From assembly GCA_009787835.1 (NCBI GenBank), contig WQSN01000001.1, positions 1-64,000 of the forward strand: a stretch of DNA of 64,000 bases, read 5' to 3'. The position numbers were made by a program, and so were the translations under genes. The notes beneath the pieces are model-generated. The model was not told the origin of the DNA and searched no databases. It saw nothing but the letters and a program-made list of their open reading frames with translations. The stretch is from Treponema sp. Lineage in GTDB: Bacteria; Spirochaetota; Spirochaetia; Treponematales; Breznakiellaceae. Positions 1,366 to 46,975 of this stretch are shown here, piece after piece; position 1 is the first letter of the stretch; the number at the start of each line of letters is the position of its first letter.

Positions 1366-1675
1366 AGATAAACATTGTAGCGCAAATGTATTTGATCACT
1401 TTTTTATTTTGTGTTGTTATAGCTGTTAATGTGCGGCTTATACAGCACGGATGACAGTTTATAGAAATTTAATATTAGCGTTTACGCAGCCCGCGTTTAA
1501 TATGTGGTATGTTTTTAAGAATTCCTTGTCTTGCAAAACGAAATTTAGCCTGTCATTTAAAGGATTTAACCGCTCCATGATTATATGATAATAAGGATTT
1601 AAAATATTATCAAGGAAAAAGCTGTGATAATATCTCAGCACTTGAACAGCAATAGTTGATATATTAAAATACAAT
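1366..1675. other. Intergenic region upstream of uxuB
   Basis: About 310 bases with no convincing gene. The 5' two thirds show no recognisable structure. The last 75 bases hold an inverted repeat (ATATTATCA at 1604-1612, TGATAATAT at 1625-1633), a further TGATAAT copy near 1586-1592 and the uxuB promoter, listed separately. Confidence 0.6.
1604..1670 (+). promoter_or_regulatory. uxuB promoter with upstream inverted repeat
   Basis: TTGAAC (1642-1647), a 17-base spacer and TAAAAT (1665-1670) form a good sigma-70-type promoter. Only five bases separate the -10 box from the ATG at 1676, and no Shine-Dalgarno site is present, so the transcript would be leaderless. Immediately upstream of the -35 box lies a perfect 9-bp inverted repeat ATATTATCA/TGATAATAT with a 12-base spacer, a plausible regulator site. 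Confidence 0.6.
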
Positions 1676-3289
1676 ATGCGTTTATCAGATGAAACAATTA
1701 AAGATGTAATTTTCTGGGACAAAGCGAATATTTCACTTCCAGGATTTGATCGCAAGGCGATGATCGCCGCGACAGGCAAGACTCCCCGGTGGATTCATTT
1801 TGGAGCGGGGAATATTTTCCGCGCTTTCCCGGCATCTCTTGCACAGAGCCTTTTAGAAATGGGAATTGAAACAACAGGCATTGTAGTTGCGGAAGGTTAT
1901 GACGGGGAAATAATAGATAAATGTTTTTTACCATTCGATAATTTATGTATACTGGTTACGCTAAAATCAGGCGGAACAACGGATAAAAAAGTAATCGCTT
2001 CTGTCGCTTCATCATTGAGGACGGATAAAAATTGGGCGGAATTAAGGAAAATTTTTATAAATCCTTCCCTGCAGATGGCGAGTTTTACAATTACGGAAAA
2101 AGGATACAATCTTACAGGCAAAAACGGGTCGCTGTTGGCTGACATCAAAGAGGATATTAATTCAGGTCCAGGGGAACCGAATAGTTATCTGGGCCGAATT
2201 GCCGCCCTATGCCATGAGCGTTATGTAAATGGGGCTTACCCTCTCGCTTTGGTAAGCATGGACAATTGTTCGCATAACGGCGATAAGCTTTTTGCCGCCA
2301 TGGAAACATTCGCAAAAGGCTGGACTGAAAAAAACATAACGGACGCGGGTTTTTTAAACTATATCCGCAACCGCAAAAAAGTATCATTTCCGTGGACAAT
2401 GATTGATAAAATTACGCCGCGGCCGGATGAAAGCGTAAGAAAAATGTTAAACGAAACCGGCATTGAGGACATGCAGGACATTGTTACGGAGAAAAACACA
2501 TATATCGCTCCTTATGTAAACGCTGAAGAAACACAGTACCTTGTAATGGAAGACGCTTTTCCAAACGGCAGACCCGCATTGGATAAAGCAGGCGTGCTTT
2601 TTACAGACAGGGAGACAGTAGACAAGGTTGAAAAAATGAAAGTCGGCACATGCCTTAACCCTCTGCATACAGCTCTCGCCGTTTTTGGATGTCTGCTTGG
2701 ATTTAAAAGGATCAGCGATGAAATGAAAGATCCTGATTTACTGAAACTTGCCGAAGGAATAGGCCGCCGCGAGGGTATGCCTGTTGTAATTGATCCAGGG
2801 ATTATAGAGCCTGATAAATTTCTTGATCAGGTAATAAATGTGCGTCTTGTAAATCCTTTTTTACCTGATACACCGCAGCGAATAGCGACAGATACATCGC
2901 AAAAAATTCCGGCGCGTTTTGGCGGAACCCTAATTGCCTATAAAGAGAGCGGAAAAATTTTACAGGATTTAAAATTGATTCCTTTGGTTTTCGCGGGCTG
3001 GCTTCGTTATCTTTTGGGTTATGATGACGAAGGAAACCCAATGAATGTGAGTCCGGATCCTTTATATGAAAATTTAAAAGCCGGTCTTGATGGAATTATT
3101 TTCGGGCAAATCATTATTGAAAAAACTTTTATTCACAGTAAACTTAAACCTTTGCTTTCCAATTCTTCCCTGTTCGGCCTTGATCTTTACGAAGCCGGTC
3201 TCGCAGAAAAGGTAGAAAATTACTTTTCTATGATGATATCAGATCGCGGAGCGGTAAGAAAAATTCTGTCAATAATTGTTAATGAGTAA
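1676..3289 (+). CDS. uxuB: D-mannonate oxidoreductase (fructuronate reductase), mannitol dehydrogenase family
   Basis: The 537-residue product is a polyol-specific long-chain dehydrogenase that would interconvert D-fructuronate and D-mannonate with NAD(H) in the cytoplasm. The Rossmann region begins near residue 39 (HFGAGNIFRAF). SMDNCSHNGDK near residue 195 is the family signature. K322-VGTCL-N328-PL-H331 resembles the catalytic K-x(4)-N-xx-H motif with one extra residue between K and N. Length fits the larger UxuB/UxaB members. Altronate/tagaturonate specificity (UxaB) cannot be excluded by sequence reading, but a UxaE epimerase at 31952 makes fructuronate the logical substrate. The gene is monocistronic and converges on the E1 gene. 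The ATG lies directly after the promoter and lacks an SD. Confidence 0.85.
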   Translation: MRLSDETIKDVIFWDKANISLPGFDRKAMIAATGKTPRWIHFGAGNIFRAFPASLAQSLLEMGIETTGIVVAEGYDGEIIDKCFLPFDNLCILVTLKSGGTTDKKVIASVASSLRTDKNWAELRKIFINPSLQMASFTITEKGYNLTGKNGSLLADIKEDINSGPGEPNSYLGRIAALCHERYVNGAYPLALVSMDNCSHNGDKLFAAMETFAKGWTEKNITDAGFLNYIRNRKKVSFPWTMIDKITPRPDESVRKMLNETGIEDMQDIVTEKNTYIAPYVNAEETQYLVMEDAFPNGRPALDKAGVLFTDRETVDKVEKMKVGTCLNPLHTALAVFGCLLGFKRISDEMKDPDLLKLAEGIGRREGMPVVIDPGIIEPDKFLDQVINVRLVNPFLPDTPQRIATDTSQKIPARFGGTLIAYKESGKILQDLKLIPLVFAGWLRYLLGYDDEGNPMNVSPDPLYENLKAGLDGIIFGQIIIEKTFIHSKLKPLLSNSSLFGLDLYEAGLAEKVENYFSMMISDRGAVRKILSIIVNE

Positions 3290-3336
3290 TAAGTTATATA
3301 CTAATCCCGCGGGAACTTCTTTTTACTGTAAATTTC

Positions 3337-5808
3337 CTAAACACCCAATCTGTTCTTTCTCATTATCTCGCCTGTAGTTTGCACAGTAACGGCATTATAA
3401 TCCGGCAGCGGGAGGATGCGTTCATGAATTGTGTCGATGATCCAGTCAATCTGCGGGAAGTAGAGGTGTTCCACCTCGGCGGCCGGGGTGATCCAGTTGC
3501 GGCTTCCTACAACAGACACAGGTGCGTCAAGATGATCAAACGCTAGAGTCTGAATATTACTCGCAACTGTATGAAGGAAAGAGCCGCGCTCGCACGAGTC
3601 GCTTGCGAGCAGAAGCTTTCCTGTCTTCTTTACAGATTCAACTATCATTTCGTAATTCAGCGGATTTATAAAACGCAGATCAATTACTTCTGCGGAAAGA
3701 TTGAACTGGTTTTCAAGCCTTTTCGCCGCTTCAATTGCAGGATAGAGAGTCGCGCCGATTGTAGCGATTGTTAAATCATTTCCCTGTTTGCGTATAACGG
3801 GTTCTCCTTCAGGCACTTCGTAATACCCCTGAGGAACGCCGTCCTTTTCAAATTGTTCACTGATGTCGTAAAGAAGCTGGCTTTCATAAAATATAACGGG
3901 ATCAGTGCCGCGCAGGGCCAGATTTAACATGCCTTTCGCGTCGTATGGAGTGGCGGGGAAGTATGATTTTAAACCCGGAATGTGAGCGGTTATAGCCGAC
4001 CAGTCCTGGCTGTGCTGTGCTCCGTATTTATTACCTACAGAAACGCGCACTACAAGCGGCATTTTTAAAAGCCCCGCTGACATTGCCTGCCACTTGGAAG
4101 CCTGGTTAAATATTTCGTCTCCGGCTCTTCCCATAAAATCGCAGTACATCAGTTCCACTACGGCCCTACCTCCCGATAGCGCGTAACCGACGCCTGAGCC
4201 GACTATAGCCCCTTCGGATATCGGACTGTTGAAGAGCCTGTTATACGGAAGAAGTTCGGAAAGCCCTCGGTAGACGGCGAACGCGCCGCCCCAGTCGCGG
4301 TTTTCTTCGCCCCATGCTGCCATTGTCGGGTCGATTGTAAAGCGGTGAAGCAGCGCCTCAAACAGCGCGTCACGGTACTGGAACGCCCTGTTCCTGGATA
4401 CCGGTTTTCCTTCCGCGTCGAAACCATAGCGGAGCCTGTCAGCGAGAGCTTTAACCCTTGGATTATCTGCAACTGGCTGCGCCAGCTCCGCTTCGCGGCT
4501 GTCAAGTTTTTCAGCCCTGCCGTTTGAATACATAACAGATTCTATAAACGCTCCGCCGCAGCGCGCGGAGATTTCATCGTTAACCGCAAGTTTTACAACT
4601 TCAGTCAGCCTGATTTTTATTGTTTCACGTAACGCGTCAAGTTCTGATTTGCCTGCTGCTTTATTCTCGACAAGATACGCGCCGTATTCCTGGATTGAGT
4701 CCGCTTCCTGCCAGAGTTTTATTTCTTCGGGCGTCCTGTAACTTGAAGCGTCGGAAGGGGAGTGGCCTGAAATCCGGTAGGTAAGAGTGTCAAGAAGCGC
4801 CGGTCCTTTCCCTTCAAGAAGTATGGCCTTCTTCCGGCTAATCGCGTCTGCTACAGCAAGCGGATTGTAGCCGTCCACCCGTTCTGAATGCATATTGTCA
4901 GGGTTAACGCCAGCGCCTACGCGCGCCATAATGCCGTACCCCATCGTTTCTCCGGAAGTCTGTCCGCCCATGCCGTAAAAATTGTTAAAGAAATTAAAGA
5001 GAATTGGAGGCGCTCCTCCGGCTTCTTTGGACCAAAGATTACGGTACTGATCCATTGCGCTTAACATCATCGCTTCCCACACGGGACCGCAGCCCATGGA
5101 AGCGTCGCCGATATTAGCGATTACAATGCCCGGTTTGCGGTTTATGCGCTTGTAAAGAGCGCTGCCTGCTGCTATGTCCGCCGAGCCTCCTACAATGGCG
5201 TTATTTGGCATGGAGCCAAAGGGCGTGAAAAATGCGTGCATGGAACCGCCAAGCCCCCGGTTAAATCCCGCCCTTCGGGCGAATATTTCACCTAATGTTC
5301 CGTACAGAACAAAATTTTCACCCAGATCGCGCATGGTTTTATGGGGAATCTTTTCGGCGATACTGAGCGTTTCGCCGTCAAGGTAACTTTTCATTACAGC
5401 TTCAAGGCGCTTCTGCCCGTAGGCGCTCTGCGTATATTGCCATAAAGCCGAGAAACATTTGGCTATTATTTCGCCGTGACTACGATGGCTGCCGAAAATG
5501 TAATCATCTATGGTCAGGTTAACGCACTGTCCGACCGCTGACGCTTCCTGTCCCATGGAAAGATGAGCAGGTCCTTTATGGTGATAATTTATACCGTTCC
5601 ATGTCCCCTGAGTTTTAAAGGAATTCAGCATGGATTCAAATTCGCGGATTACAGACATGTCGTACCAAATCTGAATGAGCCTCTCTTTTCCGTAAAGCTC
5701 AACCTCTTTTTTAAAATCAGGTTTATACTGATTAACCGGTATGTCCTTTATTTTTAGCATCTGCGGCTTACGCACTTCTTTTGGATCAATTAATATTGAT
5801 TTAGGCAT
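3337..5808 (-). CDS. 2-oxo acid dehydrogenase E1, fused alpha and beta subunits
   Basis: The 823-residue thiamine diphosphate enzyme carries both E1 subunits on one chain. Residues ~40-440 are E1-alpha: SHRSHGE near 107-113, GGSMHAF near 187-193 and the ThDP/Mg motif starting GDASMG at 234 and closing with Asn near 272-275. Residues ~480-820 are E1-beta: [11 protein letters not shown], then [19 protein letters not shown], a transketolase-like pyrimidine region and the C-terminal domain. It would decarboxylate a 2-oxo acid and acylate the lipoyl group of the E2 encoded at 7336-8772. Pyruvate, acetoin or a branched-chain acid cannot be distinguished. It is the last gene of the operon deoR-E2-E3-E1. 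The ATG has an AAGGAG site 8 bases upstream. Confidence 0.85.
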
Positions 5809-5882
5809 TTAATTCTCCTTGAATATTTAAATATTTTTCAGTAAAACTTTCATATAACATTTATTTTTATTTCCTTTTTTTT

Positions 5883-7289: not shown

Positions 7290-7335
7290 ATATACTCCTG
7301 AAACAAAACATCGAATTAATATACGCTCATTTTAA

Positions 7336-8772: not shown

Positions 8773-8789
8773 AGTATCTCCTTTTGGTT

Positions 8790-9545: not shown

Positions 9546-9579
9546 TTTCAAAATTCCTTTTGATTGAGGCTGCTCCAAA

Positions 9580-9607
9580 ATTATTTAAAGTTTTAGAATA
9601 GCCTCAA
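9580..9607 (-). promoter_or_regulatory. Putative promoter of deoR-E2-E3-E1
   Basis: On the minus strand, TTGAGG (9607-9602), a 16-base spacer and AATAAT (9585-9580) would give a start near 9573 and a short leader that contains the AAAGGA site used by the TTG at 9545. Confidence 0.4.
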
Positions 9608-9671
9608 TTTACTTTCGATTTCCTTTCAATTATATATTGTATATAAATATATGGCAAGTGTTTTATTATAC

Positions 9672-9700
9672 TTGCGAAAGGATTTTAAATCAGATACTAT
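9672..9700 (+). promoter_or_regulatory. Promoter of the PHP-SDR pair (leaderless)
   Basis: TTGCGA (9672-9677), a 17-base spacer and TACTAT (9695-9700). The ATG of the PHP gene follows six bases later, so transcription would start at or beside the start codon. There is no SD in the usual window. Confidence 0.55.
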
Positions 9701-9706
9701 ATAGGC

Positions 9707-11074
9707 ATGATTGATTTTCCTGAAGCGATAAACAATCCATACATTGATATGAATGAGCGGCTTACCGCTTTACGTTCTTTTCATCAAACAGAACAATTAA
9801 ATGGCAATTTTCCAAAAAAAAGTGAAGAAATTAACAATCATATCCATACTGTTTACAGTTTCAGTCCATATACTCCCTCCATGGCAGCGCTTCAGGCGAG
9901 AAAATCAGGGCTTGCCGCAGCAGGCTCTGTTGACCATGATTCTATCGGCGCTGCGATGGAAATGCTCGAAGCATGCGCGATTTTAGGCATTGGCAGCTGT
10001 GTTGGTTTTGAAGTACGGGTCAGTTTCAGGAAAGGCGCGGATGGAAAAACATGTCCGTTCGCTGACAGAAAAATCAATAACCCAGATTCGCGCGGGATCG
10101 CTTATATGACAGTCCAGGGAGTGCCGCGCAAGGCTATTGTACGCTCACAGGAATTTCTTTCGCCAATCAGGGAGCAGAGGCTTAAACGGACAGAGGCGAT
10201 GACAGTTTCAGCTAACGTATTGCTGAAGGAAGCCGGATTTAATGAGATTGATTTTCAGCGTGATATATGTCTCAAATCCAAATACGCGCAGGGCGGAGGA
10301 ATAACAGAACGACATCTTCTCGCTTCCGCCGCACGTATAATAATTGATAAATACGGCAAAGGACAGGAACTGGTTTTGGCGCTTAAAACCAAATTGGGAA
10401 TTATTGTTCCTGTGAAAATTGAAGTATTACTTTCTCAGGCGGATAATCCTCATTACCTGTTTGATCTATTAGGGATTTTAAAACAGGATTTTTTACCAAA
10501 AATTTTTATACAGCCCGATGAAAAAGAATGCGTTCCGGCGCAAGAAATAGTATCATTTGCAGAATCATCAGGAGCTATTTCATCTTACGCCTATCTGGGC
10601 GATGTAGGGGAATCCCCGACAGGCGATAAGCGGGCGGAAAAATATGAAGATGATTACATCGAAGAACTGTTCGCGGAACTGGCTCGCCTTAAATACAGAG
10701 CTGTAACATATATGCCTCCGCGAAACACGCGTGAGCAGTTAAAAAATGTTCAGCGGCTTTGCCGTGAAATGGGTTTTATGGAAATTACAGGCGTTGATAT
10801 AAACACTTCGCGTCAGTCTTTTAACTGTCCTGAAGTTCTGCAGAATGAATTCCGTCATCTGCTTGACACAACATGGGCGCTGATTGCCCACGAGCGCCTG
10901 ACCACAGTTGATAAACGTTTCAGCCTTTTTTCAGATGAAAATCCGTTAGCTGCCATTAATCTGAAAGAGCGGCTAACGTTATACGCAAATTTAGGAAAAA
11001 GGCTTAACCTGAATAATCCGCAGGAGTCGGCCTGTGAAATGGCCGCTGAAATCGATAAAGGGAGATTTATATGA
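9707..11074 (+). CDS. PHP-domain metal-dependent hydrolase
   Basis: The 455-residue protein has the PHP signature near its N-terminus: H45-I-H47-T-x-YSFSPY and D76-H77-D78-S, metal ligands of the polymerase/histidinol-phosphatase superfamily, followed by GFEVRV. A phosphoesterase or related hydrolase activity in the cytoplasm is expected. The C-terminal two thirds has further conserved-looking Asp/Glu/His positions but no second domain I recognise. It overlaps the downstream SDR gene by ATGA, so the two are translationally coupled, and it is divergent from the DeoR operon. The substrate is unknown; the regulator type suggests a sugar or polyol phosphate. Confidence 0.75.
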   Translation: MIDFPEAINNPYIDMNERLTALRSFHQTEQLNGNFPKKSEEINNHIHTVYSFSPYTPSMAALQARKSGLAAAGSVDHDSIGAAMEMLEACAILGIGSCVGFEVRVSFRKGADGKTCPFADRKINNPDSRGIAYMTVQGVPRKAIVRSQEFLSPIREQRLKRTEAMTVSANVLLKEAGFNEIDFQRDICLKSKYAQGGGITERHLLASAARIIIDKYGKGQELVLALKTKLGIIVPVKIEVLLSQADNPHYLFDLLGILKQDFLPKIFIQPDEKECVPAQEIVSFAESSGAISSYAYLGDVGESPTGDKRAEKYEDDYIEELFAELARLKYRAVTYMPPRNTREQLKNVQRLCREMGFMEITGVDINTSRQSFNCPEVLQNEFRHLLDTTWALIAHERLTTVDKRFSLFSDENPLAAINLKERLTLYANLGKRLNLNNPQESACEMAAEIDKGRFI

Positions 11075-22986: not shown

Positions 22987-23039
22987 AAACACTTCCTTTA
23001 AATTCCAAATATACACTGGAATGAATAAGACCATCGGTG

Positions 23040-23045
23040 TACAAT
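23040..23045 (+). promoter_or_regulatory. -10 box of aminotransferase gene (leaderless)
   Basis: TACAAT ends six bases before the ATG at 23052. The -35 region is poor (CTGGAA at 23016-23021). No SD is present. The layout matches the other leaderless starts in this window. Confidence 0.4.
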
Positions 23046-23051: not shown

Positions 23052-24212
23052 ATGTATATTTCCAAATTAGCCAGCGCTTCCAGGACAAATATACTTCAGG
23101 TACTTGAAGAGCGAAGAGTTCAGCTTGTTTCTCAGGGAAAAGATATTATAAATCTCTCTGTCGGGACTCCTGACAGGCCGCCCGCGCCTCATGTAATGCA
23201 GGCGATCGCGGAAGCTTCCAAAAATCCTGAAAATTACAAGTACACGCTGACAGATCCTCAGGCGCTGACAGACGCTGTCAGAAACTGGTATAAAAACCGC
23301 TACAATACAGATATAGAAAAAGATGAAATACTTTCAATATACGGATCGCAGGAAGGATTCGCGCATATTTTCCATGCGTTATGCGACATCGGCGATATTG
23401 TGATAACTGGCTCGCCGGGTTATCCCGTATTTTTCTACGGTCCGCGAATGGCGGGAGCGGATGTATACCGCATTCCCTTGCTGCCGGAAAACGGATACCT
23501 AATCGACTTTGATTCAATTCCGCAGGAGATCGCGAAAAAAGCGCGGGTTATAATCGCAAGTTATCCGTCAAATCCGTTAGGCGCAATAGCTTCAGAAGAT
23601 TTTTATGTAAGGCTTGTCTTTTTCGCGAAAAAATACGGCATTGCGGTTATACACGACAACGCCTACTCTGAACTTGTACATGACGGTCAGCCAGGAGGGA
23701 GTTTTCTTTCAATACCCGGCGCGAAAGATATAGGCATTGAGTTTAATTCACTTTCAAAAAGTTATAATTTAACAGGTCTTAGAATCTCCTTTGCGATTGG
23801 GAACAGGCAGATAATCGAAGCTTTCAGGAAACTCAGGACAAATATTGATTACGGACTCTGCGCTCTGGATCACACCGCAGCGGTTGCATCTCTTACAGGG
23901 CCCCAGGATATCGTTAAACAAAACCGAGAGGCCTACAGACAGAGGCGCGACGCTTTCTGCGCCGCTCTTTCAGCTAACGGCTGGAAAACGCCAATGACGC
24001 CAGCTTCAATGTTTACATGGTTTCCGGTTCCGGTTAAAGGCGTTACAAGCGAACAGTTTTGCATAGATCTTCTGGAAAAGGCGGGCGTTATCTGCGTTCC
24101 GGGATCCAGTTTCGGCGCAGAAGGGGAGGGGTATCTTCGCTTCGCGCTTACTCAAACGCCTGAAAGGCTTGAAGAGGCCGCGCGCAGAATCGGAGAATAT
24201 TTAAAGAATTAA
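23052..24212 (+). CDS. Class I/II PLP-dependent aminotransferase, DapL-like
   Basis: The 386-residue fold-type I aminotransferase shows NLSVGTPDRPPAP near the N-terminus, YPSNPLGA (171-178), an HDNAYSEL block and the PLP lysine K236 in NSLSKSYNLTGLR, with RFALTQTPERLEEA near the end. The SKSYNLTGLR/NPLGA pattern is closest to LL-diaminopimelate and related alanine/aspartate aminotransferases, so a role in lysine or peptidoglycan precursor synthesis is possible. It lies between carbohydrate genes without obvious link, has its own leaderless-type start and is followed 30 bases later by an oxidoreductase gene. Substrate remains uncertain. Confidence 0.82.
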   Translation: MYISKLASASRTNILQVLEERRVQLVSQGKDIINLSVGTPDRPPAPHVMQAIAEASKNPENYKYTLTDPQALTDAVRNWYKNRYNTDIEKDEILSIYGSQEGFAHIFHALCDIGDIVITGSPGYPVFFYGPRMAGADVYRIPLLPENGYLIDFDSIPQEIAKKARVIIASYPSNPLGAIASEDFYVRLVFFAKKYGIAVIHDNAYSELVHDGQPGGSFLSIPGAKDIGIEFNSLSKSYNLTGLRISFAIGNRQIIEAFRKLRTNIDYGLCALDHTAAVASLTGPQDIVKQNREAYRQRRDAFCAALSANGWKTPMTPASMFTWFPVPVKGVTSEQFCIDLLEKAGVICVPGSSFGAEGEGYLRFALTQTPERLEEAARRIGEYLKN

Positions 24213-33459: not shown

Positions 33460-33488
33460 TTGAAAAAAAGCCATGAATATGTTATTGT
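33460..33488 (+). promoter_or_regulatory. Promoter of hybrid histidine kinase gene (leaderless)
   Basis: TTGAAA (33460-33465), a 17-base spacer and TATTGT (33483-33488). The ATG follows after five bases (33494), with no SD. Confidence 0.5.
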
Positions 33489-33493: not shown

Positions 33494-35887
33494 ATGAGTA
33501 TAAAATCATTGCTTTATAATTGGCGTTATTTTGGAATTGGTCAGGATGAATATGAGAAGTGCTTAAAAAAAACTTTTCCGGATAATATATACAGCCTGCA
33601 AAAGGCAAATATTCTTGTAGCGACCCTGGCGTTTATTTATGTTATTGCCCGCTATTTTATTGATAGTAATGATCCTGTCAGTATGGCCAGAAACATGAGC
33701 GTTTATTTTGCAACCGGTCTTATTGCGTTAATTCAGATATTTTTTATTAACCACAAAATTAAACAGGTTAACAAAAAGAAACCTGTAAGTAATCAGTTGA
33801 TATATGCATTGATCATTATCTATTTTGTTAATGTTATTTTTTTTGGCATATATTTGGGTATTTGGGCAAATCCAGGAAAAATCGCGGGAGCTTTTTTAGG
33901 CATATTAATATGCGCGTTATTTATTTTTGATATACCGGCAATTTTCAGCATGAGCCTTACAGTCAGCGCAGCAATAATTTTTATGATATTAACCAGGATT
34001 GCAACACGAAACGGAATACCGGTCAAGGCTCATGGCGACTGGTTTATTGACTGGTCAAACGCAGTATTCGCCGGGGTAATAGGTATCTACTTTGGCTGGC
34101 ACATTGTCAAATCCAGGATTGGCAAATCTTTACATTCATCGGAAGCGGAAGCCGCAAATAAGGCAAAGTCTGTATTTTTAGCGAACATGAGTCATGAAAT
34201 CCGCACTCCCATGAACAGCATCATCGGATTTACAGAGCTTGCAATGTATGACAATTTGATGCCGAAAACCAGGGATTACCTGATAAAAATTCAAAAAAAT
34301 TCTGAATGGCTGATGCAGTTAATAAATGATATTCTGGATATATCAAAGATTGAATCCGGAAGAATGGAAATTGAAAATATTCCGTTTAACCCGCATGAGA
34401 TACTGGCCGCGTGCCGGACAATGATAATGCCGAAAGCGGTAGAAAAAAATCTGACAATGCATTTTTACGCAGAACCTTCTGTCGGCAAGAGATTGTACGG
34501 CGATCCCATAAAGCTCCACCAGGTGCTTGTAAACCTTCTTTCCAACGCTGTGAAATTTACCAATACCGGCATGATTAAAATGCTCGGCACAATTAAAAAT
34601 ATCAGCGCGGATAAAGTTACAATGTATTTTGAAATTATTGACAGCGGGATCGGAATTACCGCCGATCAAATGAAAAAATTATTTACTCCGTTTACACAGG
34701 CCGAAGCCGGAACTACGCGTAAATTCGGCGGCTCAGGGCTTGGGCTTGTAATTACCAAAAACCTGATAGAAATGATGGGAGGCAAGCTCTGCGTGGAAAC
34801 CACGCCTGGTTTGGGCAGTAAATTCAGTTTTGAGCTGACATTTGACGCAGTGGATGTAGCCGATGAAACCAATCCGTCTGAACGCATACTGTTTGATAAT
34901 AATCTTGAAAAACCAATTTTTGAAGGCGAAGTATTGGTGTGCGAGGACAATGCCATGAATCAGCAGGTTATCTGCGAGCATCTGGCGCAGGTTGGCATAA
35001 AAACAGAAGTAGCAAATAACGGCGAACAGGGCGTCGCTATTGTTCAGAAAAGAGCGCAGAAAATTTTTGAAGCCTCAGACAAAAATAAACCTGCCAATAT
35101 AAAACAATTCGATTTGATATTTATGGATATACATATGCCCGTTATGGACGGAATTGAAGCGACGGAGAAAATAATAGCAATCGACGCGAATATTCCAATT
35201 GTAGCCATGACAGCTAACGTAATTACCGATGACAGGGATATATACCTTTCTACCGGCATGAGGGAATGCGTCAGTAAACCTTTTACATCGCAGGTGTTAT
35301 GGCGCTGTCTCCTGAAATTTTTAAATCCAGTTAAATGGGAAAAAGAACGCATGCTGGAACATGAACATGCCAGCAATGAACTGTATCAGGAACTTATAAA
35401 TCTTTTTGTCAAGAACAACCGTGAGAAATTCAAGGAAATCAAAAACGCGATGAGCATTGGAGATATAGAACTGGCTCACAGGCTTGCGCATACTTTAAAA
35501 GGTAATGCCGGTCAATTAAATAAAGCTCCGCTTGCGAAAGCCGCATCGGAAGTGGAAACCAGCCTTAAAAACGGGGTTAACCTTGTTACATTCGCCCAGA
35601 TGGAAACTCTTAAAGCGGAGTTGAATAATACAATTGAAGAGCTGGAACCATTGGTTCAAATTAAGGAAAAACCGGTTGTTACAGGCGTATTGGACGATGC
35701 GTCCGCCCGTGATTTGCTGGATAAACTGGAGTTAATGCTGAAGAACGGCAACCCCGAGTGTCTGACATTTGTTAATGATCTTGGAATGATACAGGGAAGC
35801 GATGAGCTAATCAATCAGATGGATGATTTTGAATTTAATGAGGCGTTAAAAACCCTTGCCGTATTAAAGAAAAAATATTTTACATAA
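33494..35887 (+). CDS. Hybrid sensor histidine kinase with receiver and Hpt domains
   Basis: The 797-residue membrane protein has about six hydrophobic helices within residues 35-210 and no large periplasmic sensor domain. Next come an HisKA domain (H234 in [16 protein letters not shown]), a HATPase_c domain (N box LLSNAVKF, G boxes DSGIG and GGSGLGL), a receiver domain with phosphoacceptor D545 ([11 protein letters not shown]) and a C-terminal Hpt domain with H666 ([11 protein letters not shown]). It would run an internal His-Asp-His phosphorelay; the output regulator is not in the window. The gene is alone, starts leaderless and overlaps hemW tail to tail by 8 bases. Confidence 0.9.
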
Positions 35888-37793: not shown

Positions 37794-37801
37794 AAAAAAC
37801 C

Positions 37802-38875
37802 TTAAATTATTTTTCCTATCCGCCCCAAGGGCCAGTAAATTATCATTCCCTTGCCAAGCACTCTTGATACTTTGACAGGCCCAAAATACCGCCCGTCTCT
37901 AGAATTATCGCGATTATCTCCCAAAGGGAAAACCCGTCCTTCGGGCACATACCAGCCAAGAGTATGCCGGGCAAGAAGCGCGGCATAACGCTTTTCATGC
38001 GGAGATGTTTTTCTGAGCGTTTCAAGCCTTGCCTTCTCATGGGCAAGATAATCGGGCGCTTTCAGATTTCCGGTGTTCTGCGCTTCATTTATTAGTTTCT
38101 CGGGAGCGTTCAAACCTATGTCCGATAATGCTGCGGCCTGTCCTGCCGCGACAAGCGCGGGGTATTGATTTTGCTGCATTATACGGCTGATATTATGATT
38201 CCAGCTGCGGGATGTAAAATATTGATTTTCTTCCACCCAGCGGTCTTCTCCGGAAAATAGAATCTTCATATCGCCGTTCTCTGTAATGAAACGGTCGCCT
38301 GCCGTTCCTGCTGCGCGTTTTATAAGAAAATGAACCCTTGGCTCTCCTGAGACATCCCTGTCAATATCAACCAATGAAAGGGTAAGCATATAGATAATAC
38401 GCTGAGCAATGTCAAAAACAGGGCCTTTGGAAATATATGATGGATTTTCAAAAATGATAATATCGTTTCTTATAGGCTTTATTGGGCTTGGCACTTTCAG
38501 AATACCGGGGAGCAATTCAGGCCCAAACACGATTTTATTGACAAAAACATGGTCGCCGATATTAAGAGAGTCGATCATTGAACCTGAAGGAATCCTGTAA
38601 GCCTGCACCAGATACTGATTAATCAATAACACCATACCGGCAGCCCATAAAAAAGCTTCTATCCAATCTATTATTGGATTTTTAGCCTTTCGCTTTTCTT
38701 TTTTTATACGGTGAATCCTTCTGCGGCGGGTAAGGTAAGTTTCAGTGACTGCCTGGACTCTGTCGAAAAAATCAGGATGGGAACCATCTTTTTTCAGGCG
38801 CGGTTGTTTTTCCGGAAGAGAATCTTCGCTCTTTAGTCCCTGTCGAGGTTCAGGCTGTTTGGATGTAGACGACAC
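37802..38875 (-). CDS. lepB: Signal peptidase I
   Basis: The 357-residue S26 peptidase has a charged, Lys/Arg-rich N-terminal cytosolic tail of ~70 residues, a membrane segment (~72-92) and catalytic S99 (IPSGSMIDSLNIGD) with K186 (FLIKRAAGTAGDRF). Between the catalytic Lys region and box E (GDNRDNSRDGRYFG) lies an insertion of roughly 100 mostly charged residues, making it longer than usual enzymes. It removes signal peptides at the outer face of the inner membrane. It heads the operon with the Asn-variant paralogue and hemW. The GTG start sits five bases from a perfect TATAAT box, suggesting a leaderless message. Confidence 0.9.
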   Translation of the reverse strand: MSSTSKQPEPRQGLKSEDSLPEKQPRLKKDGSHPDFFDRVQAVTETYLTRRRRIHRIKKEKRKAKNPIIDWIEAFLWAAGMVLLINQYLVQAYRIPSGSMIDSLNIGDHVFVNKIVFGPELLPGILKVPSPIKPIRNDIIIFENPSYISKGPVFDIAQRIIYMLTLSLVDIDRDVSGEPRVHFLIKRAAGTAGDRFITENGDMKILFSGEDRWVEENQYFTSRSWNHNISRIMQQNQYPALVAAGQAAALSDIGLNAPEKLINEAQNTGNLKAPDYLAHEKARLETLRKTSPHEKRYAALLARHTLGWYVPEGRVFPLGDNRDNSRDGRYFGPVKVSRVLGKGMIIYWPLGRIGKII

Positions 38876-38880
38876 ACTAA

Positions 38881-38910
38881 ATTATAGCATAAAGCAGGGC
38901 AGGGGAGCAA
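38881..38910 (-). promoter_or_regulatory. Promoter of lepB operon (leaderless)
   Basis: On the minus strand TTGCTC (38910-38905), an 18-base spacer and perfect TATAAT (38886-38881). The GTG at 38875 follows after five bases, and no SD can fit. Confidence 0.55.
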
Positions 38911-38953
38911 TAGGCTGCGAAAGTTCATGCCCTTCTTATCGCGGCAAGGTATC

Positions 38954-38982
38954 TTCACTTAATTATTTGTTTAAAATATAAT
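38954..38982 (+). promoter_or_regulatory. Promoter of ABC permease-ATPase pair (leaderless)
   Basis: TTCACT (38954-38959), a 17-base spacer and perfect TATAAT (38977-38982), with the GTG start at 38990 seven bases later. Confidence 0.5.
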
Positions 38983-38989
38983 TTTAAAA

Positions 38990-40045
38990 GTGATTTTATT
39001 GTTTTTTTGGGTAAAAATAGCCGCAAAAAAATTTATAAGTTTATTAAAAGTATCTCCCGTTATAATCATTTTTACTGTAATATTTACAGGAGCATTTTTA
39101 TATGCATTCGTAAATAATCATATCGTATTAAATCCTGATTCATGGACATTATATCTTATTATTTTATTTTTTGTCTTAATTTCTGTGTTGAATTCATTAA
39201 AAAGATATAATGTAACTCCGGTATTACTGGCATATTCTAAAAGTAAAAACAGCAATAAACATATTTGTATAATGTTTTTTATTAAAAGGGCCTTATTAAA
39301 TAATTTATTTTTAATAATTATTAATATCTTCGCCTATAATATAAATAGTATTACATTAATCTGTATAACAGTATTTTCTGTATTTATTTCTTTTCTGATA
39401 ATGTATCTAAAAAATATATATATAAATATTAAAATTAAAAATAATACAGAAAAAATATTGAAAATTAATCCAAAAATAAAAAGCATAATATATGATTATC
39501 TGACTTCAGATTTTTCCGCTATGACGGTTTTATGTATAACCATGTTCTTAATTCTTGTAAATGAATTCTCGAAAAATTCCGCATTTGATAATGATTTAAA
39601 AACGCAGACTCATTTTTTTATGCTGTTAACAATCATATTCGGTCTGGGATTTATTGGAATAATAGATTCAATACGAAATATAAACCGGAAATTCCACGCC
39701 ATATTGTCCGCGAATGATTTAAAATATCATGTTAAAAGGACCATTTTATTCCTTGCCGGAATCTATTGCTGGTTATTTGCTGTTTTTATTTATTTTGGCT
39801 TTACTGTAAGTGCCGCACTTATGTTTAAATATATATTTTGTATTTTAATTTTGTTTATGATATCAATATTTATGGCGTTTACAATAACAAATATACTGTT
39901 AAAATCAATTATTATGATTCTTTTACTGGCCTTTACTGTATGGATTAGCTCTTTAACGTCTCCATTTTTAATAGCGCTTATAATACCGCTTGTTTTTGCA
40001 TTTGCGAAAGCAAAAAATGAATACAGGGAGTGGTTTTTATTATGA
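38990..40045 (+). CDS. ABC-2-type multi-spanning membrane protein (permease)
   Basis: The 351-residue, very hydrophobic protein has about eight to ten predicted membrane helices and no soluble domain. No motif identifies it alone; the ATG of an ABC ATPase overlaps its stop by ATGA, so it is read as the membrane half of an ABC-2-type transporter. Base composition is strikingly AT-rich, with many Ile/Asn/Lys codons ending in A or T, unlike the flanking genes, which suggests recent acquisition or relaxed selection. GTG 38990 follows a TATAAT box by seven bases. The cargo is unknown; small peptides, lipids or drugs are typical of such pairs. Confidence 0.7.
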   Translation: MILLFFWVKIAAKKFISLLKVSPVIIIFTVIFTGAFLYAFVNNHIVLNPDSWTLYLIILFFVLISVLNSLKRYNVTPVLLAYSKSKNSNKHICIMFFIKRALLNNLFLIIINIFAYNINSITLICITVFSVFISFLIMYLKNIYINIKIKNNTEKILKINPKIKSIIYDYLTSDFSAMTVLCITMFLILVNEFSKNSAFDNDLKTQTHFFMLLTIIFGLGFIGIIDSIRNINRKFHAILSANDLKYHVKRTILFLAGIYCWLFAVFIYFGFTVSAALMFKYIFCILILFMISIFMAFTITNILLKSIIMILLLAFTVWISSLTSPFLIALIIPLVFAFAKAKNEYREWFLL

Positions 40046-41860: not shown

Positions 41861-42225
41861 TAGGAAGCCTGGCTCATGTTTTTTACATGAACCTTCGCGG
41901 CGAATTGCGTATTATCGTCCACTTCAAAAGGCTCAAGAATCATGCCAACCGCGCCGCGGCGAATCCATATTTTTACCATTGGCACTCCTTCTCCAGATTC
42001 TGTTACAGCGGAAGGTATTTCCTCAACAAACATCACATCTTCAAATAAAAATTCCAGAACAGCGGGATTTGGCCCTAAAGGATCATTTACAAGTATCAGT
42101 TTATTTTTTTCTGAAGGATGTGCTCTTGGATGGCCGAAGAAAGGAACGCCGTCTTTAGGCTGTCCTTTCGCGTATTTGGCGATACCGCTTAATGGCAGCA
42201 TTTCAAGATAGTTATTTTTATTCAT
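41860..42225 (-). CDS. Small protein of unknown function coupled to amrS
   Basis: The 121-residue soluble protein has no family I recognise. It is rich in Pro, Gly and acidic residues in its middle and ends in a beta-like stretch (VKIWIRRGAVGMILEPFEVD). There is no signal peptide, membrane segment or Cys motif. AGAGG precedes the ATG, and TATAAT lies upstream at 42252-42247 on the minus strand. Its stop overlaps the amrS start as TAATG, so it is translated in step with the radical SAM enzyme and could be its substrate, partner or chaperone; that is inference from coupling only. Confidence 0.7.
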   Translation of the reverse strand: MNKNNYLEMLPLSGIAKYAKGQPKDGVPFFGHPRAHPSEKNKLILVNDPLGPNPAVLEFLFEDVMFVEEIPSAVTESGEGVPMVKIWIRRGAVGMILEPFEVDDNTQFAAKVHVKNMSQAS

Positions 42226-42246
42226 GCCAACCTCTCTGTGTATGAG

Positions 42247-42252
42247 ATTATA
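42247..42252 (-). promoter_or_regulatory. -10 box for small gene-amrS operon
   Basis: Perfect TATAAT on the minus strand, 21 bases before the ATG at 42225 and leaving room for the AGAGG ribosome site. No convincing -35 box. Confidence 0.45.
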
Positions 42253-42271
42253 TCAATGAAATTTAATTATA

Positions 42272-42300
42272 TTGAAACCATTCAATTTTTCAAGTACGAT
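42272..42300 (+). promoter_or_regulatory. nudC promoter
   Basis: TTGAAA (42272-42277), a 17-base spacer and TACGAT (42295-42300), giving a short leader that includes AGAGGG before the TTG start. Confidence 0.5.
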
Positions 42301-42317
42301 TTAAAAAGAGGGATATT

Positions 42318-43109
42318 TTGAATAATCGTTCTTTTTTCTTCCAGGGTGATGCGCTGCTCCTTCCGCAGGATATTCCGGATTCCCAAATATATTCAGGTCT
42401 TTCTCCGGATTTATCCAATAATTTTATTAATCCAGAAATATTTAATATTTCCGCAATTGATGAAAATGTCCATGAGATGATTAATGTTGTGTCCATCCTT
42501 CCTGAAACGCCGCTTCAGGATAACTGGAAAAAAATTCCTGTTCGCCAGCTTCTTGCCGCCAGCGCCGCGGGAAATTTTAATATCGACAGGATCATCCGCG
42601 CCTGCCACATTGTACAGTGGCGAAGCGAATCCCGCTTCTGCGGAACATGCGGTGCTAAAAATGACTTTATTTACGGAGAAACGCATTGCCTGTGCCCTGT
42701 CTGCGGAAGAATGGAGTTTCCAAGAATTTGCCCCGCTGTTATTGTTTTAATTACTGATGACAGAAACAGAATCCTTCTTGCGCATAACAAAAGATTTAAA
42801 ACAAAAGTATATAGCCATATATCAGGCTTTAACGAAGCAGGAGAATCGCTTGAAAAAACCGTAGCCCGGGAAATCCGCGAAGAAATAAATATAGAGGTTT
42901 GTAATATTGTTTATTTTAAATCTCAGGCCTGGCCTTTCCCCAATTCACTGATGCTGGGATTTAAAGCGCATTATTTATCGGGGACAATCAAACCTGACGG
43001 AATAGAGATTGAAGACGCCGCCTGGTTCGAAAAAGATAATCTGCCTGAACTCCCGGGACATGGCTCGCTGTCGCGCGTACTCATTGATTCATGGCTTGCG
43101 GGTAATTAA
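42318..43109 (+). CDS. nudC: NADH pyrophosphatase, Nudix family
   Basis: The 263-residue protein has a divergent N-terminal domain, then a zinc ribbon (C108-x2-C111 and C126-x2-C129), then FPRICPAVIVLI and the Nudix box GFNEAGESLEKTVAREIREEI (starting at G170). SQAWPFPNSLMLGF after the box matches the SQPWPFPxS signature of NudC-type enzymes, which cleave NADH or remove NAD caps from RNA. It starts at TTG with AGAGG upstream. It is divergent from the amrS pair and convergent with the antiporter gene. Confidence 0.9.
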   Translation: MNNRSFFFQGDALLLPQDIPDSQIYSGLSPDLSNNFINPEIFNISAIDENVHEMINVVSILPETPLQDNWKKIPVRQLLAASAAGNFNIDRIIRACHIVQWRSESRFCGTCGAKNDFIYGETHCLCPVCGRMEFPRICPAVIVLITDDRNRILLAHNKRFKTKVYSHISGFNEAGESLEKTVAREIREEINIEVCNIVYFKSQAWPFPNSLMLGFKAHYLSGTIKPDGIEIEDAAWFEKDNLPELPGHGSLSRVLIDSWLAGN

Positions 43110-43138
43110 GTACAGGAGAAAACAGCGACAGACAGATA

Positions 43139-44311
43139 CTACGTTTCTGCGCTCTTGGGATATGCTGCATTTAACAGCAATGGCGTAATAAGAACCGTAA
43201 TAAGCACAACAACTATTATACTTGGATACATGATTGAGCTTAAATATCCCAATGCCATACCTTTGGAAGCGACAATGAATGAAACTTCGCCTCGCGGGAT
43301 CATGCCAAAGCCGACCTGTAAACTTTCCCTGTTTGTAAAATTGCATAATTTTGCGCCTAATCCGCAGCCGATCAATTTTGATAATATCGATATTATGACC
43401 AGTAAAAGCGTGAATATAATTAAATTGCCTGTCATGCCGTCAAACGATGTGTGTATGCCGATATTCGCAAGGAATATTGGAGTAAAAAACATATAGGATA
43501 GCCAGTGAGTTTTTGTTTCAAGATATTCAACGCATCTAGTACTGCAAAAAGCGACACCCGCGATATATGCTCCTGTTATGTCTGCCAGTCCAAAAAGTTC
43601 GGCAAGATACGCCATAAGGAAACAATAGGCTATCGCAAAAACCGTAAACCTTCTTCTTTCGCCTTTTCTTGCATAAGCCCAATTAAAAATTTTATTGACA
43701 AGAATGCCTGCTCCAATGGCAAACACAAAGAAAGCGATGATTTTCAATAGAATTATCCCCAGAGAAAGAAAGGATAAACCGTTTGAGCCTATGCCCATTG
43801 TTACAGCCAGAACGATAATAACCAGAATGTCATCAAAAACAGACGCTCCCAACAGGGCTGTTCCTGTTTTGGTTTTTAATTTCCCCATTTCAGATAGAGC
43901 CTCAACCATGATGCTCGTTGACATTGACGCAAAAACAACGCCGATGAAGAAACATTGAAATACCGAAAGCCCCAGCATTTTACTGAATACAAGAGCCAGG
44001 GCAAATCCGCCGCCCAGTGCAGCGATTATGCCGAAAATGGAGATTAAAAGCGATGGTTTTAACATGCCTTTAAGCTGCCTGAAATCGGTTTCCATTCCGG
44101 CGGAAAAAAGCAAAAAAATAACTCCAAACTCCGCGATTGTACTAATTGTTTCATTCGGCTCAACCAATTTTAAAACAGCAGGACCTAATAAAACTCCCGC
44201 AATAAGCGCGCCAATTACCTGCGGCATATGGATGCTTTTCATTGTGATGGAAAAGGCTTTTGTTACCAGCAGGATTAACGCGATAATAAGCAGAATATAG
44301 GTATTTGTCAT
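43139..44311 (-). CDS. Cation:proton antiporter, CPA2 family
   Basis: The 390-residue membrane protein has roughly twelve hydrophobic segments. MPQVIGALIAGVLLGPAVL near the N-terminus, FLLFSAGMETD, the paired acidic residues in SVFDDILVII (central ion-binding helix) and FGMIPRGEVSFIVA near the C-terminus are signatures of NapA/KefB-type exchangers. It lacks the cytosolic RCK (KTN) domain of regulated K+ efflux proteins. It exchanges Na+ or K+ for protons across the inner membrane. AAGGAGTGA precedes the ATG. It is divergent from recA. Confidence 0.9.
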   Translation of the reverse strand: MTNTYILLIIALILLVTKAFSITMKSIHMPQVIGALIAGVLLGPAVLKLVEPNETISTIAEFGVIFLLFSAGMETDFRQLKGMLKPSLLISIFGIIAALGGGFALALVFSKMLGLSVFQCFFIGVVFASMSTSIMVEALSEMGKLKTKTGTALLGASVFDDILVIIVLAVTMGIGSNGLSFLSLGIILLKIIAFFVFAIGAGILVNKIFNWAYARKGERRRFTVFAIAYCFLMAYLAELFGLADITGAYIAGVAFCSTRCVEYLETKTHWLSYMFFTPIFLANIGIHTSFDGMTGNLIIFTLLLVIISILSKLIGCGLGAKLCNFTNRESLQVGFGMIPRGEVSFIVASKGMALGYLSSIMYPSIIVVVLITVLITPLLLNAAYPKSAET

Positions 44312-44355
44312 ATTAAGTCACTCCTTATTTATTTATATATAAATTTTCCTGACTG

Positions 44356-44414
44356 ATTATACTATTTTAAATGATCATTAAAAAATACTTGACAAACTTG
44401 TAGTATCCTATAGC
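44356..44414. promoter_or_regulatory. Divergent antiporter/recA promoter region
   Basis: TATAAT on the minus strand (44361-44356) serves the antiporter. TTGACA at 44389-44394 on the plus strand, followed by TATAGC at 44409-44414, is a possible recA promoter, but the 14-base spacing is short. No obvious LexA-type palindrome was recognised. Confidence 0.35.
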
Positions 44415-44499
44415 AATTTTTTTTTTAATATGATAGAATAATTTTATTAAAGTAAAGCGCTAAACATACACGCGCCATATATAGGGGGAGGAGATAATC

Positions 44500-45741
44500 A
44501 TGGCAAAATCTAATGATTCAGAAAAGACCAGGGGCAATCCTAACGCGTCAAGCGAGGAAAAAGCGAAAGCCCTGGAAGCAGCCCGTCTTCAGATTGAAAA
44601 ACAATTTGGCGCGGGATCATTAATTAAACTGGGAGAGCATAATGCCGCTTCCGGTATTGAAGTAGTGCCTTCAGGCTCAATACTTCTTGATGAGGCATTG
44701 GGAATCGGAGGCTATCCCAGGGGGCGTATAATCGAAATATACGGCCCTGAGTCTTCGGGAAAAACTACGCTTGCCCTGCACGCGATAGCCGAAGCCCAAA
44801 AATTAGGAGGAAACGCCGCCTTTATTGACGCGGAACATGCCCTCGATCCTGTTTACGCTAAAAATCTTGGGGTTAACATAGACGAATTATGGGTATCGCA
44901 GCCTGATAACGGTGAACAGGCAATGGAAATTACAGAAAGCCTTGTCCGTTCCGGCGCTGTCGACGTCATTGTTGTAGACTCCGTCGCGGCCCTTACCCCT
45001 CAGGCGGAAATTGAAGGCGAGATGGGTGACGCTCAAATGGGCGCTCAGGCGCGTTTAATGAGCCAGGCATTGAGAAAACTTACAGCGACAATCGGTAAAT
45101 CGCGTACAATATTAATTTTTATTAATCAGATTCGCATGAAGATTGGAGTCTTCTTCGGAAACCCCGAAACGACAACCGGCGGCAACGCGCTTAAATTCTA
45201 TTCATCGGTCAGGCTGGAAGTGCGAAAAACTGAGACAATCGAAGTGAGCAAGGATGTTGATGCTATTGGCAACAGGGTGCGCGTTAAGGTTGTAAAAAAT
45301 AAAGTCGCGCCTCCTTTCAGAAAAACAGAAATTGAGTTAATGTTCGGTAAGGGAATTTCAGCGTCAGGCAGCCTTTTGGACTGCGCGGTAAAGAACGAGC
45401 TGATAAAGAAAAGCGGCGCATGGTATTCCTACAATGATGAAAAAATAGGGCAGGGCAGGGACAATACCCGTGAGTATCTTGAGCAGCATCCTGATTTCTC
45501 CAAAGACCTTGAAAAAAAATTAAAGGCAATTATTTTCCCCGGAAGAGAGTTTCCGCAGGCAAAGAATGCCGCAGCCAGGACAAGCGTAGAAATGCCTGAT
45601 TTAAAACAGACTGCGCAGGGTATTACAGCAAAAACCCCGGTATCCGCAGCGGTAGCGGAAAAAGCGCCTGTTTATGAAACTGCCTCCGCGCCCCGCGGCC
45701 GTCCAAAAAAGACAGCTGCAGGAGAAGACGCATTATTTTAA
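44500..45741 (+). CDS. recA: Recombinase RecA
   Basis: The 413-residue RecA has Walker A GPESSGKT (82-89), the [10 protein letters not shown] Walker B region, [17 protein letters not shown] and loop L2 region [23 protein letters not shown]. The core is followed by a C-terminal tail of about 60 residues, Ala/Pro/Lys-rich rather than strongly acidic as in many bacteria. It forms nucleoprotein filaments for homologous recombination and DNA repair. A strong GGGGGAGGAG precedes the ATG. It is probably monocistronic; a 14-bp hairpin follows the gene. Confidence 0.98.
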
Positions 45742-45796
45742 TGGCAGTTGCATATTCGCATCTTTTGTATAATTAAAAAATATTATCTTAATTCAG

Positions 45797-45833
45797 TGTT
45801 TGTCCATAAAGCATAAGGTTTTATGGACAAACA
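45797..45833. repeat. 14-bp perfect stem-loop after recA
   Basis: TGTTTGTCCATAAA (45797-45810) and TTTATGGACAAACA (45820-45833) pair perfectly around a 9-base loop. There is no adjacent T-run on either strand, so a standard intrinsic terminator is unlikely, though it may end or stabilise the recA message. The next gene's promoter starts 13 bases later. Confidence 0.7.
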
Positions 45834-45845
45834 TAAATTGTTATC

Positions 45846-45874
45846 TTGACTTTCTGTTAAAATTATAACATAAT
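45846..45874 (+). promoter_or_regulatory. Promoter of the 45881 gene (leaderless)
   Basis: TTGACT (45846-45851), a 17-base spacer and CATAAT (45869-45874). The ATG follows after six bases and lacks an SD. This is the best-matching promoter of the leaderless group and probably drives the long operon through 54549. Confidence 0.6.
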
Positions 45875-45880
45875 CTCAGA

Positions 45881-46975
45881 ATGAAAAATTTTGTGCAATA
45901 TTTATTACTGTTTCTGTTGGTAATCACGGCCCTAACGCCATGTTTTACACAGCAGTACTACAGCGGAGACGGCGGAAGAAACATTAGGCTTGCAATTTAT
46001 GAACCTCAGCCGCAGGGGAATGTATCGGGGGATCAGTTAACATATATCCAGAGCATGTTAAATAATAATTTTAACAGATTTTCTGCGATTAGATTAATTG
46101 ATCAGCAATATCTTGAAAGAATAATAGCTGAACAGGATGCCGCATCCAGCGGCAGATTTAGTGATGAGGATTATATCAGAATTGGAGCTCTGGTAAACGC
46201 CCAATATATGCTTTTCGGCACAATACAAAGCCTTTCCGCAGACCGTTACAGGCTGCATCTGTCCATAACAGAATCTAATGAAGGATTACGTGTTGCCACC
46301 TTCATGAAAGACGGCAGCATCACTTCATTGGTATACGAAGCGACAGATGAACTGCTTAAGGGACTGGGAGTTATCCTTACCGCAGAAGGCAGGAATGAAC
46401 TGCAAAGGCAGCAAAAAGCGGCAGTGCAGGCTGAACAAAGAATGGCAAGAGATACGGCCAGAAATGAAAGAGCCAGTAAAACCGGAAGCGCTTTCGATGC
46501 AGCAAAGGAACAAAGGATTGATCATGCGCACAGATCATTTCTGGGCACAAATGTTTTCTTTAAATTTGAACCCGGTGAAATTTACGGCGGCGGTTTAGAA
46601 GTTGAGGCTTTCGTTCCAATATTTCCGTTTATAACGCTTGGGGTTTCAGCTAACATTGGCCTCATGTTTCCGGATGATTACAAAATCGGCGATGGAGATT
46701 TTTTTTCATGGTCAGTCTCCCCTGTAGCCGGCATTATTTGGCCTGCTAACCAGAGTATAAAAATATTTTCAGATGTATTATTTGATTTTGGCAACTTTGG
46801 CGCGTTAAACGGGATATTCGCCGAATGGTTTACCCTGTCTTATGATATTGGCATTCAGTTTCATATTCCAAACAAAAATTATGTTTTAGGCATGAAATAC
46901 CGTGGATCTTTTTATGATGAAAAGCATTACACAAGCACGTTTGTTCTGGGCGTATCCTTATGGTGGGGGAATTAA
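45881..46975 (+). CDS. Exported CsgG/LpoB-like domain plus C-terminal beta-barrel-like protein
   Basis: The 364-residue protein has an N-terminal signal peptide (hydrophobic to ~20, ending near PCFTQQ). Residues ~33-155 are like the CsgG/LpoB-type fold (RNIRLAIYEP, QSMLNNNFNRFSAIRLIDQQYLERI, ALVNAQYMLFGTI). An Ala/Glu/Arg-rich coiled stretch follows (~165-205). The last 150 residues alternate aromatic and polar strands ending in LWWGN, the look of an outer-membrane barrel. It is probably an envelope protein; no catalytic residues are visible. It is the first gene of an operon with scpA, scpB, rluB and cmk-rpsA. Close relatives occur in treponemes as conserved hypotheticals, by recollection. 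Confidence 0.65.
   Translation: MKNFVQYLLLFLLVITALTPCFTQQYYSGDGGRNIRLAIYEPQPQGNVSGDQLTYIQSMLNNNFNRFSAIRLIDQQYLERIIAEQDAASSGRFSDEDYIRIGALVNAQYMLFGTIQSLSADRYRLHLSITESNEGLRVATFMKDGSITSLVYEATDELLKGLGVILTAEGRNELQRQQKAAVQAEQRMARDTARNERASKTGSAFDAAKEQRIDHAHRSFLGTNVFFKFEPGEIYGGGLEVEAFVPIFPFITLGVSANIGLMFPDDYKIGDGDFFSWSVSPVAGIIWPANQSIKIFSDVLFDFGNFGALNGIFAEWFTLSYDIGIQFHIPNKNYVLGMKYRGSFYDEKHYTSTFVLGVSLWWGN

Follow-up and report, generated by a model that had tools for sequence, protein, structure and literature searches.

Promoters abutting start codons predict leaderless mRNAs as a minority start mode in a Treponema genome

The window considered here, 64 kb at the beginning of contig 1 (WQSN01000001.1) of the 3.08 Mb draft genome of a Treponema species (GenBank assembly GCA_009787835.1), contains seven genes whose −10 box ends 5 to 7 bases before the start codon and which lack a Shine–Dalgarno (SD) motif. 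The RecA of the window shares 90% identity with the RecA of a metagenome-assembled Treponema. We argue that these boxes are best read as parts of sigma-70-type promoters which abut the start codon and would produce leaderless mRNAs, a reading to which we give a probability of about 0.85. The evidence consists of the positions of the boxes, the absence of SD motifs, a class-wide enrichment with null controls, the linkage to −35 boxes and, for some of the genes, conservation in relatives. The predicted mode is a minority one beside SD-led initiation: the excess amounts to about 6.5% of genes, and most first genes are not of this type.

Enrichment of −10 boxes at the starts of first genes

Outside the window, 16 contigs of the genome were sampled in 40 stretches of 20 kb each (800 kb, 26% of the genome). 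Start codons were set by a rule that is blind to the −10 box: the first start with an SD motif was taken, otherwise the first ATG. A first gene caller, which set starts by codon score, was dropped because many of its starts fell inside genes. Genes that have no upstream neighbour in the stretch, or fewer than 120 upstream bases, were left out of the counts, and with the window included 638 open reading frames were called and 586 used. The rule omits SD-less genes that start with GTG or TTG, which is why two of the seven genes (lepB and the ABC permease gene) are absent from the genome counts. First genes are those at least 40 bases from their upstream neighbour, and they are called SD-led when the motif lies 4–13 bases before the start. 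A −10-like hexamer has TA at positions 1–2, T at position 6 and at least 4 matches to TATAAT; its distance is the number of bases between its end and the start codon, and the background is the mean count at distances 15–99.

Among the 548 usable genes outside the window, 293 (53%) have an SD motif, and 159 of the 320 first genes have none. At these 159 starts, 44 hexamers are found at 6–7 bases, compared to 10.8 expected (P about 3e-14): 29 at distance 6 (Poisson P 3.4e-14) and 15 at distance 7, with a background mean of 4.7. The excess at distances 5–7 corresponds to 35.8 genes, which is 6.5% of the genes and 11.2% of the first genes. A genome-wide enrichment of this kind is what the original prediction of leaderless starts, made for the seven genes from the letters of the window, had called for. 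A count at the 5'-most ATG of every first gene, made without the SD filter and with the window added, gives a weaker peak that nevertheless persists (20 hexamers at distance 6, 13 at distance 7; mean 8.8, n=250).

No −10 peak is seen at three sets of control ATGs, which are the next in-frame ATGs (3 observed, 5.2 expected, n=152), the other-frame ATGs of the same upstream regions (17 observed, 19.6 expected, n=449) and the ATGs of the opposite strand (27 observed, 28.5 expected, n=647). These three sets rule out a quirk of A+T-rich DNA as the cause of the peak. The 94 internal genes without SD have no peak either, with 2 hexamers at each of the distances 6 and 7 and a background of 1.2. The original prediction had contrasted leaderless first genes with SD-led internal genes; the signal is indeed confined to first genes, but 161 of the 320 first genes are SD-led and the excess concerns only about 11% of them.

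The boxes are also linked to a −35 element. A TTG at a spacer of exactly 17 accompanies 11 of the 51 sites found at distances 5–7 outside the window, while each of the other spacers from 8 to 29 gives 0–4. Since the peak is missing at the control ATGs and at internal genes without SD, and since TTG is linked to the boxes at spacer 17, the start-adjacent boxes are, as a class, predicted to be promoters.

The first transcribed base of a sigma-70 promoter lies about 7 bases past the −10 box; at a distance of 6, this base opens the start codon. RNA polymerase would bind the −35 and −10 boxes and start 6–8 bases past the latter, at the A (or G) that begins the start codon, and the transcription start would fall on the start codon or within about 2 bases of it. 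The transcript would begin with AUG or GUG and carry no SD. By analogy with the leaderless mRNAs that have been studied elsewhere, the 5' start codon would be bound by a ribosome already loaded with initiator tRNA, probably an intact 70S; we infer both the actual 5' ends and this mode of ribosome loading.

The seven genes of the window and their orthologues

The seven −10 boxes are present letter for letter as predicted, and the −35 hexamers and spacers that had been named are correct. On the forward strand, the uxuB-like gene (1676–3289, with the mannitol dehydrogenase domains of Pfam) is preceded by TTGAAC (1642–1647), a spacer of 17 and TAAAAT (1665–1670), 5 bases before the ATG. The gene named PHP (9707–11074, +) follows TTGCGA (9672–9677), a spacer of 17 and TACTAT (9695–9700), 6 bases before the ATG. 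The class I/II aminotransferase gene (23052–24212, +, assigned by Pfam) has TACAAT (23040–23045) 6 bases before its ATG, and its best −35-like hexamer in a promoter-model scan is TGGAAT (23017–23022, spacer 17). The hybrid histidine kinase gene (33494–35887, +, with HisKA, HATPase_c, receiver and Hpt domains in Pfam) has TTGAAA (33460–33465), a spacer of 17 and the −10-like TATTGT (33483–33488) 5 bases before the ATG. On the reverse strand, lepB, which encodes signal peptidase I (37802–38875, Peptidase_S26 in Pfam), has TTGCTC (38905–38910), a spacer of 18 and TATAAT (38881–38886) 5 bases before its GTG. The gene named ABC permease (38990–40045, +) also starts with GTG, 7 bases after TATAAT (38977–38982), and its −35 hexamer at spacer 17, TTCACT (38954–38959), is a poor match. 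Last, the gene at 45881–46975 (+), whose function is unassigned and whose N-terminus looks by eye like a signal peptide, follows TTGACT (45846–45851), a spacer of 17 and CATAAT (45869–45874), 6 bases before the ATG. A −35 box with TTG at spacer 17–18 is therefore found in 5 of the 7 genes (uxuB, PHP, kinase, lepB and 45881). The names PHP and ABC permease come from the original prediction and are unconfirmed, because these two genes have no Pfam match at 1e-5; neither does the 45881 gene. The lepB and ABC genes are divergent, and the 114-base gap between them (38876–38989) holds both start-adjacent promoters, which face away from each other.

None of the seven starts has an SD motif of at least 4 bases, as had been claimed, and none of the genes offers an SD-bearing alternative within 80 codons, so that wrong start calls are not supported as the cause of the arrangement. 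The frames are open for merely 1–10 codons upstream of the starts, and in the frame of lepB the GTG is the sole start codon within 80 codons. The strong SD that the original prediction ascribed to recA was found. When the upstream region of each gene is shuffled with its dinucleotides preserved (400 shuffles), the observed score is reached with P between 0.002 and 0.015 per gene.

Orthologues were compared within the genus under uniform criteria, an arrangement being counted as kept when a −10 box lies at 5–7 bases. The clearest conserved case appears to be lepB, for which 17 loci were considered, one of which (L258) was dropped by the start rule; in another (L265) the start was taken as TTG. 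The box is kept in 11 of the 16 remaining loci, an SD is present in none of the 16, and the best-scoring −35 contains TTG in 14 of the 16. The position of the start codon and the length of the N-terminus vary between these orthologues, and the promoter-like site stays against the start. For the aminotransferase gene, the box is kept at 6–7 bases in 4 of the 5 close orthologues (from 17 non-own loci). For the PHP gene, 13 of the 17 non-own loci were compared, 2 of which were skipped because their matches start late, and 5 of the remaining 11 keep the box. The single locus of 17 that matches the 45881 gene from residue 1 keeps the arrangement, with TTGACT-18-TAAATT at 5 bases. The start of the kinase gene cannot be compared with relatives, because none of the matches listed begins before residue 110 and most of them begin near residue 215. 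In spirochaete records around recA (L002–L017), the seven queries gave nothing for lepB, the ABC gene, the 45881 gene or the kinase; recA was matched, and besides it the 40030 gene gave one match at 27%.

Several observations weigh against the leaderless reading, or limit it. The starts were set by a simple rule, without a trained gene finder. About 11 of the 44 matches at 6–7 bases are expected by chance, so that single genes can be false. Distance 5, at which three of the seven genes have their box, is barely enriched genome-wide (7 hexamers against a background of 4.7), and spacers 12 and 25 each have 4 TTG among the 51 sites. The kinase box TATTGT is weak, the weakest of the seven. Among the relatives, the upstream sequences of two of the five PHP orthologues that keep the box (L152 and L154) are nearly identical, so these are not independent; the ABC gene has a −10 box at 5–7 bases in just 1 of 5 orthologues (of 7 non-own loci); and for uxuB, in all 14 non-own loci fetched (L135–L148), the adjacent −10 box is kept in none. 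Since 7 of these 14 congeners are SD-led and none has an adjacent box, the uxuB arrangement is probably lineage-specific, the start mode having switched in the lineage of the window. The comparison suggests that a gene can move between the SD-led and the leaderless modes.

Spread in the phylum and competing explanations

The same pipeline was applied to samples of about 130–200 kb, each a small sample taken from one genome or record. In the same genus, 11 matches at distances 5–7 were found in one genome (G013; 1.7 expected) and 14 in another (G008; 5 expected). A member of another family of the same order (G019) gave 11 matches against 2.6 expected, and 9 of these 11 have a TTG at spacer 17. 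The signal is also seen where the background is close to zero: a genome of the same order with 70% G+C (G021) gave 3 matches against about 0.15 expected, and a genome of the same class (G046) gave 9 against 0.27. Elsewhere in the phylum, one sample (G062) gave 3 against 0.7, from just 11 first starts without SD, and two samples showed no excess (G043, 2 against 3.1; G067, 8 against 8.2). Among the few genomes sampled, the pattern seems restricted to a single spirochaete class. In G067 (L297–L306, 28% G+C), 5 of the 8 sites, whose number is at chance level, have TTG at spacer 16, not 17. Outside the phylum, E. coli showed no excess at 5–7 (2 against 1.9), and a 200 kb plasmid of D. deserti, taken as a positive control, gave 6 against 0.5; its excess of 5.5 in 107 genes (5.1%) is lower than the published share, and for this reason the control does not calibrate the percentage found here.

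The explanation that competes best, although we consider it improbable, is that the promoters are real and leave a very short leader of about 1–10 nt, or that the RNA begins a little way into the gene and is translated from a later codon. The sequence fixes the start site no better than about 2 nt, hexamers are also found at distances 8, 9, 10 and 11 (8, 6, 8 and 11 at the 159 starts), and in two PHP orthologues (L151 and L156) the best-scoring box lies at 9 bases. On the contrary, the maximum at 6–7 is the spacing that places the first transcribed base on the start codon, and the use of a later codon is at odds with the lack of any downstream SD-bearing start within 80 codons in the seven genes. 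The position of the start codon is kept in the orthologues of uxuB (14 of 14), of the aminotransferase gene (5 of 5), of the ABC gene (4 of 5) and of the PHP gene (7 of 11), which also argues against this explanation; lepB is not among these.

Less probable still is that the real promoters lie further upstream and give leaders that are translated independently of SD, the adjacent boxes being idle or secondary. Here we rely on a −10/−35 model that was trained on 44 sites from the sample outside the window and used to scan 110 upstream positions; its consensus boxes are TATAAT (−10) and TTGACA (−35), and its favoured spacer is 17 (0.78). The start-adjacent site ranks first for six of the seven genes; for the hybrid kinase it ranks second, a comparable site at 36 bases scoring slightly higher (4.5 compared to 4.3), and this exception adds to the points against a leaderless start. 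In SD-led first genes, promoter-like sites are mostly 16–90 bases upstream, most often at about 25–31, in one scan that began at 15 bases, and in a scan that began at 0 bases the best site of one SD gene lies 4 bases from the start. The strong sites of genes without SD cluster at 5–7 bases, contrary to those of SD genes, which speaks against distant promoters; this comparison is partly circular, since the model was trained on such sites, and the corresponding histogram serves as an illustration only. In favour of distant promoters, 108 of the 159 first-gene starts without SD have no −10 box at 5–7 bases, so that another SD-independent route, or wrong starts, must be involved there.

The least probable explanation is chance, by which hexamers without function would turn up near many start codons: upstream DNA is about 66% A+T, and about 5 of the 159 starts carry such a hexamer at any given distance. 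Chance may explain individual weak sites, for instance that of the hybrid kinase, but for the class of sites it is already refuted by sequence evidence, since the excess is limited to distances 6–7 at real starts and absent from ATGs on both strands of the same upstream regions, the boxes are linked to TTG at spacer 17, and the signal persists in genomes of 62–70% G+C with near-zero background (G046 and G021).

tRNA-abutting starts, implications and known systems

Some start codons of congeners lie against a tRNA gene. In the aminotransferase orthologue of G011 (L170, ATG at 2652, reverse strand), there is no adjacent promoter and a gap of 4 bases separates the ATG from the 3' end of a tRNA-Thr gene upstream on the same strand (2657–2729), so that trimming of the tRNA would leave a nearly leaderless mRNA. 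In G008, an open reading frame of 355 amino acids that resembles a metallophosphoesterase (L223, 18389–19530, +; Pfam Metallophos, residues 28–211) has its ATG directly against a tRNA-Met, with a gap of 0, and a protein begun at the next possible start, 36 codons further, would lack part of the Metallophos domain. A gap of at most 5 between tRNA and start occurs for 1 of the 3 tRNAs of G008 and for none of the 9 in G000 (0/2 in G013, 0/11 in G019, 0/3 in G046). With a start codon in this position, removal of the tRNA would release an mRNA that begins at or beside the AUG, as happens in animal mitochondria; many of the papers listed in a search on this idea concern mitochondria.

It may be, although we hold this view only tentatively and consider it rather unlikely as a whole, that this class of spirochaetes has inherited leaderless initiation as a second way of starting translation (the signal is seen in the sampled families f1, f3, f5 and f6, and absent in two other sampled spirochaete genomes), with a conserved core such as lepB, whose promoter would have stayed against the start throughout a genus although start position and flanking sequence differ, and that some mRNAs of congeners are made leaderless by tRNA trimming.

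Three observations are of interest: lepB is a conserved case, the few genomes sampled hint at a restriction to one class, and some starts abut tRNAs. Among 20 of the 41 listed sample sites, Pfam gives candidates for FtsH, FliG, a Mur ligase and a MurG-like enzyme. Should the predicted 5' ends be right, the signal peptidase gene and these candidates would be translated without a leader, their expression would respond to whatever favours leaderless mRNAs, and gene finders that require an SD would misplace their starts. The switching between SD-led and leaderless starts in uxuB orthologues would then be a natural experiment on the evolution of the start mode.

Regarding Treponema itself, no title on leaderless mRNA was found among the matches listed from the collection that was searched, which does not cover the literature outside it; in a paper on the T. 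pallidum proteome the word "leaderless" occurs once, in a reference, and in a paper on the T. pallidum transcriptome (PMC12223175) it does not occur. Leaderless starts of this kind have been described before, in other bacteria as well as in Leptospira, a spirochaete of another class. In Leptospira interrogans, differential RNA-seq mapped the start of about 440 mRNAs within 10 nt of the start codon, and the study reported no general promoter motif besides that of sigma-54 (PMC5243855). The two cases are alike in that a spirochaete has transcription starts at or close to the start codon, which are mapped there and predicted from sequence here; contrary to L. interrogans, for which only the sigma-54 motif was reported, the −35 and −10 boxes are plain here. 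Of the 18 spirochaete genomes in the computational survey of Zheng et al. (2011), which is organised by phylum, 6 were predicted to have leaderless genes, with a mean of 3.9% (range 1.8–6.9); the main text of the survey does not contain the words Treponema, Leptospira, Borrelia or Brachyspira (PMC3160421). The genes predicted there are of the same kind as those described here, whose share (an excess of about 6.5%) lies within that range. In view of these two studies, the arrangement cannot be called unusual for a spirochaete, as the original prediction had it; the leaderless reading itself stands as the best reading of the sequence, an enrichment having been found, while the strict split between first and internal genes and the supposed rarity do not.

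In Deinococcus–Thermus, according to a published study, leaderless genes with an adjacent TANNNT −10 element make up about 30% of the open reading frames, TANNNT was shown experimentally to act as the promoter −10, and a −35 box strengthens it (PMC12340547). Since our D. deserti sample gave 5.1% compared to the roughly 30% in that account, the stringent hexamer test undercounts loose TANNNT boxes. The treponemal genes share with those of Deinococcus–Thermus the lack of an SD and a −10 hexamer that lies only a few bases upstream of the start. They differ from the genes described in that source in their share (an excess of about 6.5%), in a −10 box closer to the full TATAAT, and in often having a −35 box at spacer 17.

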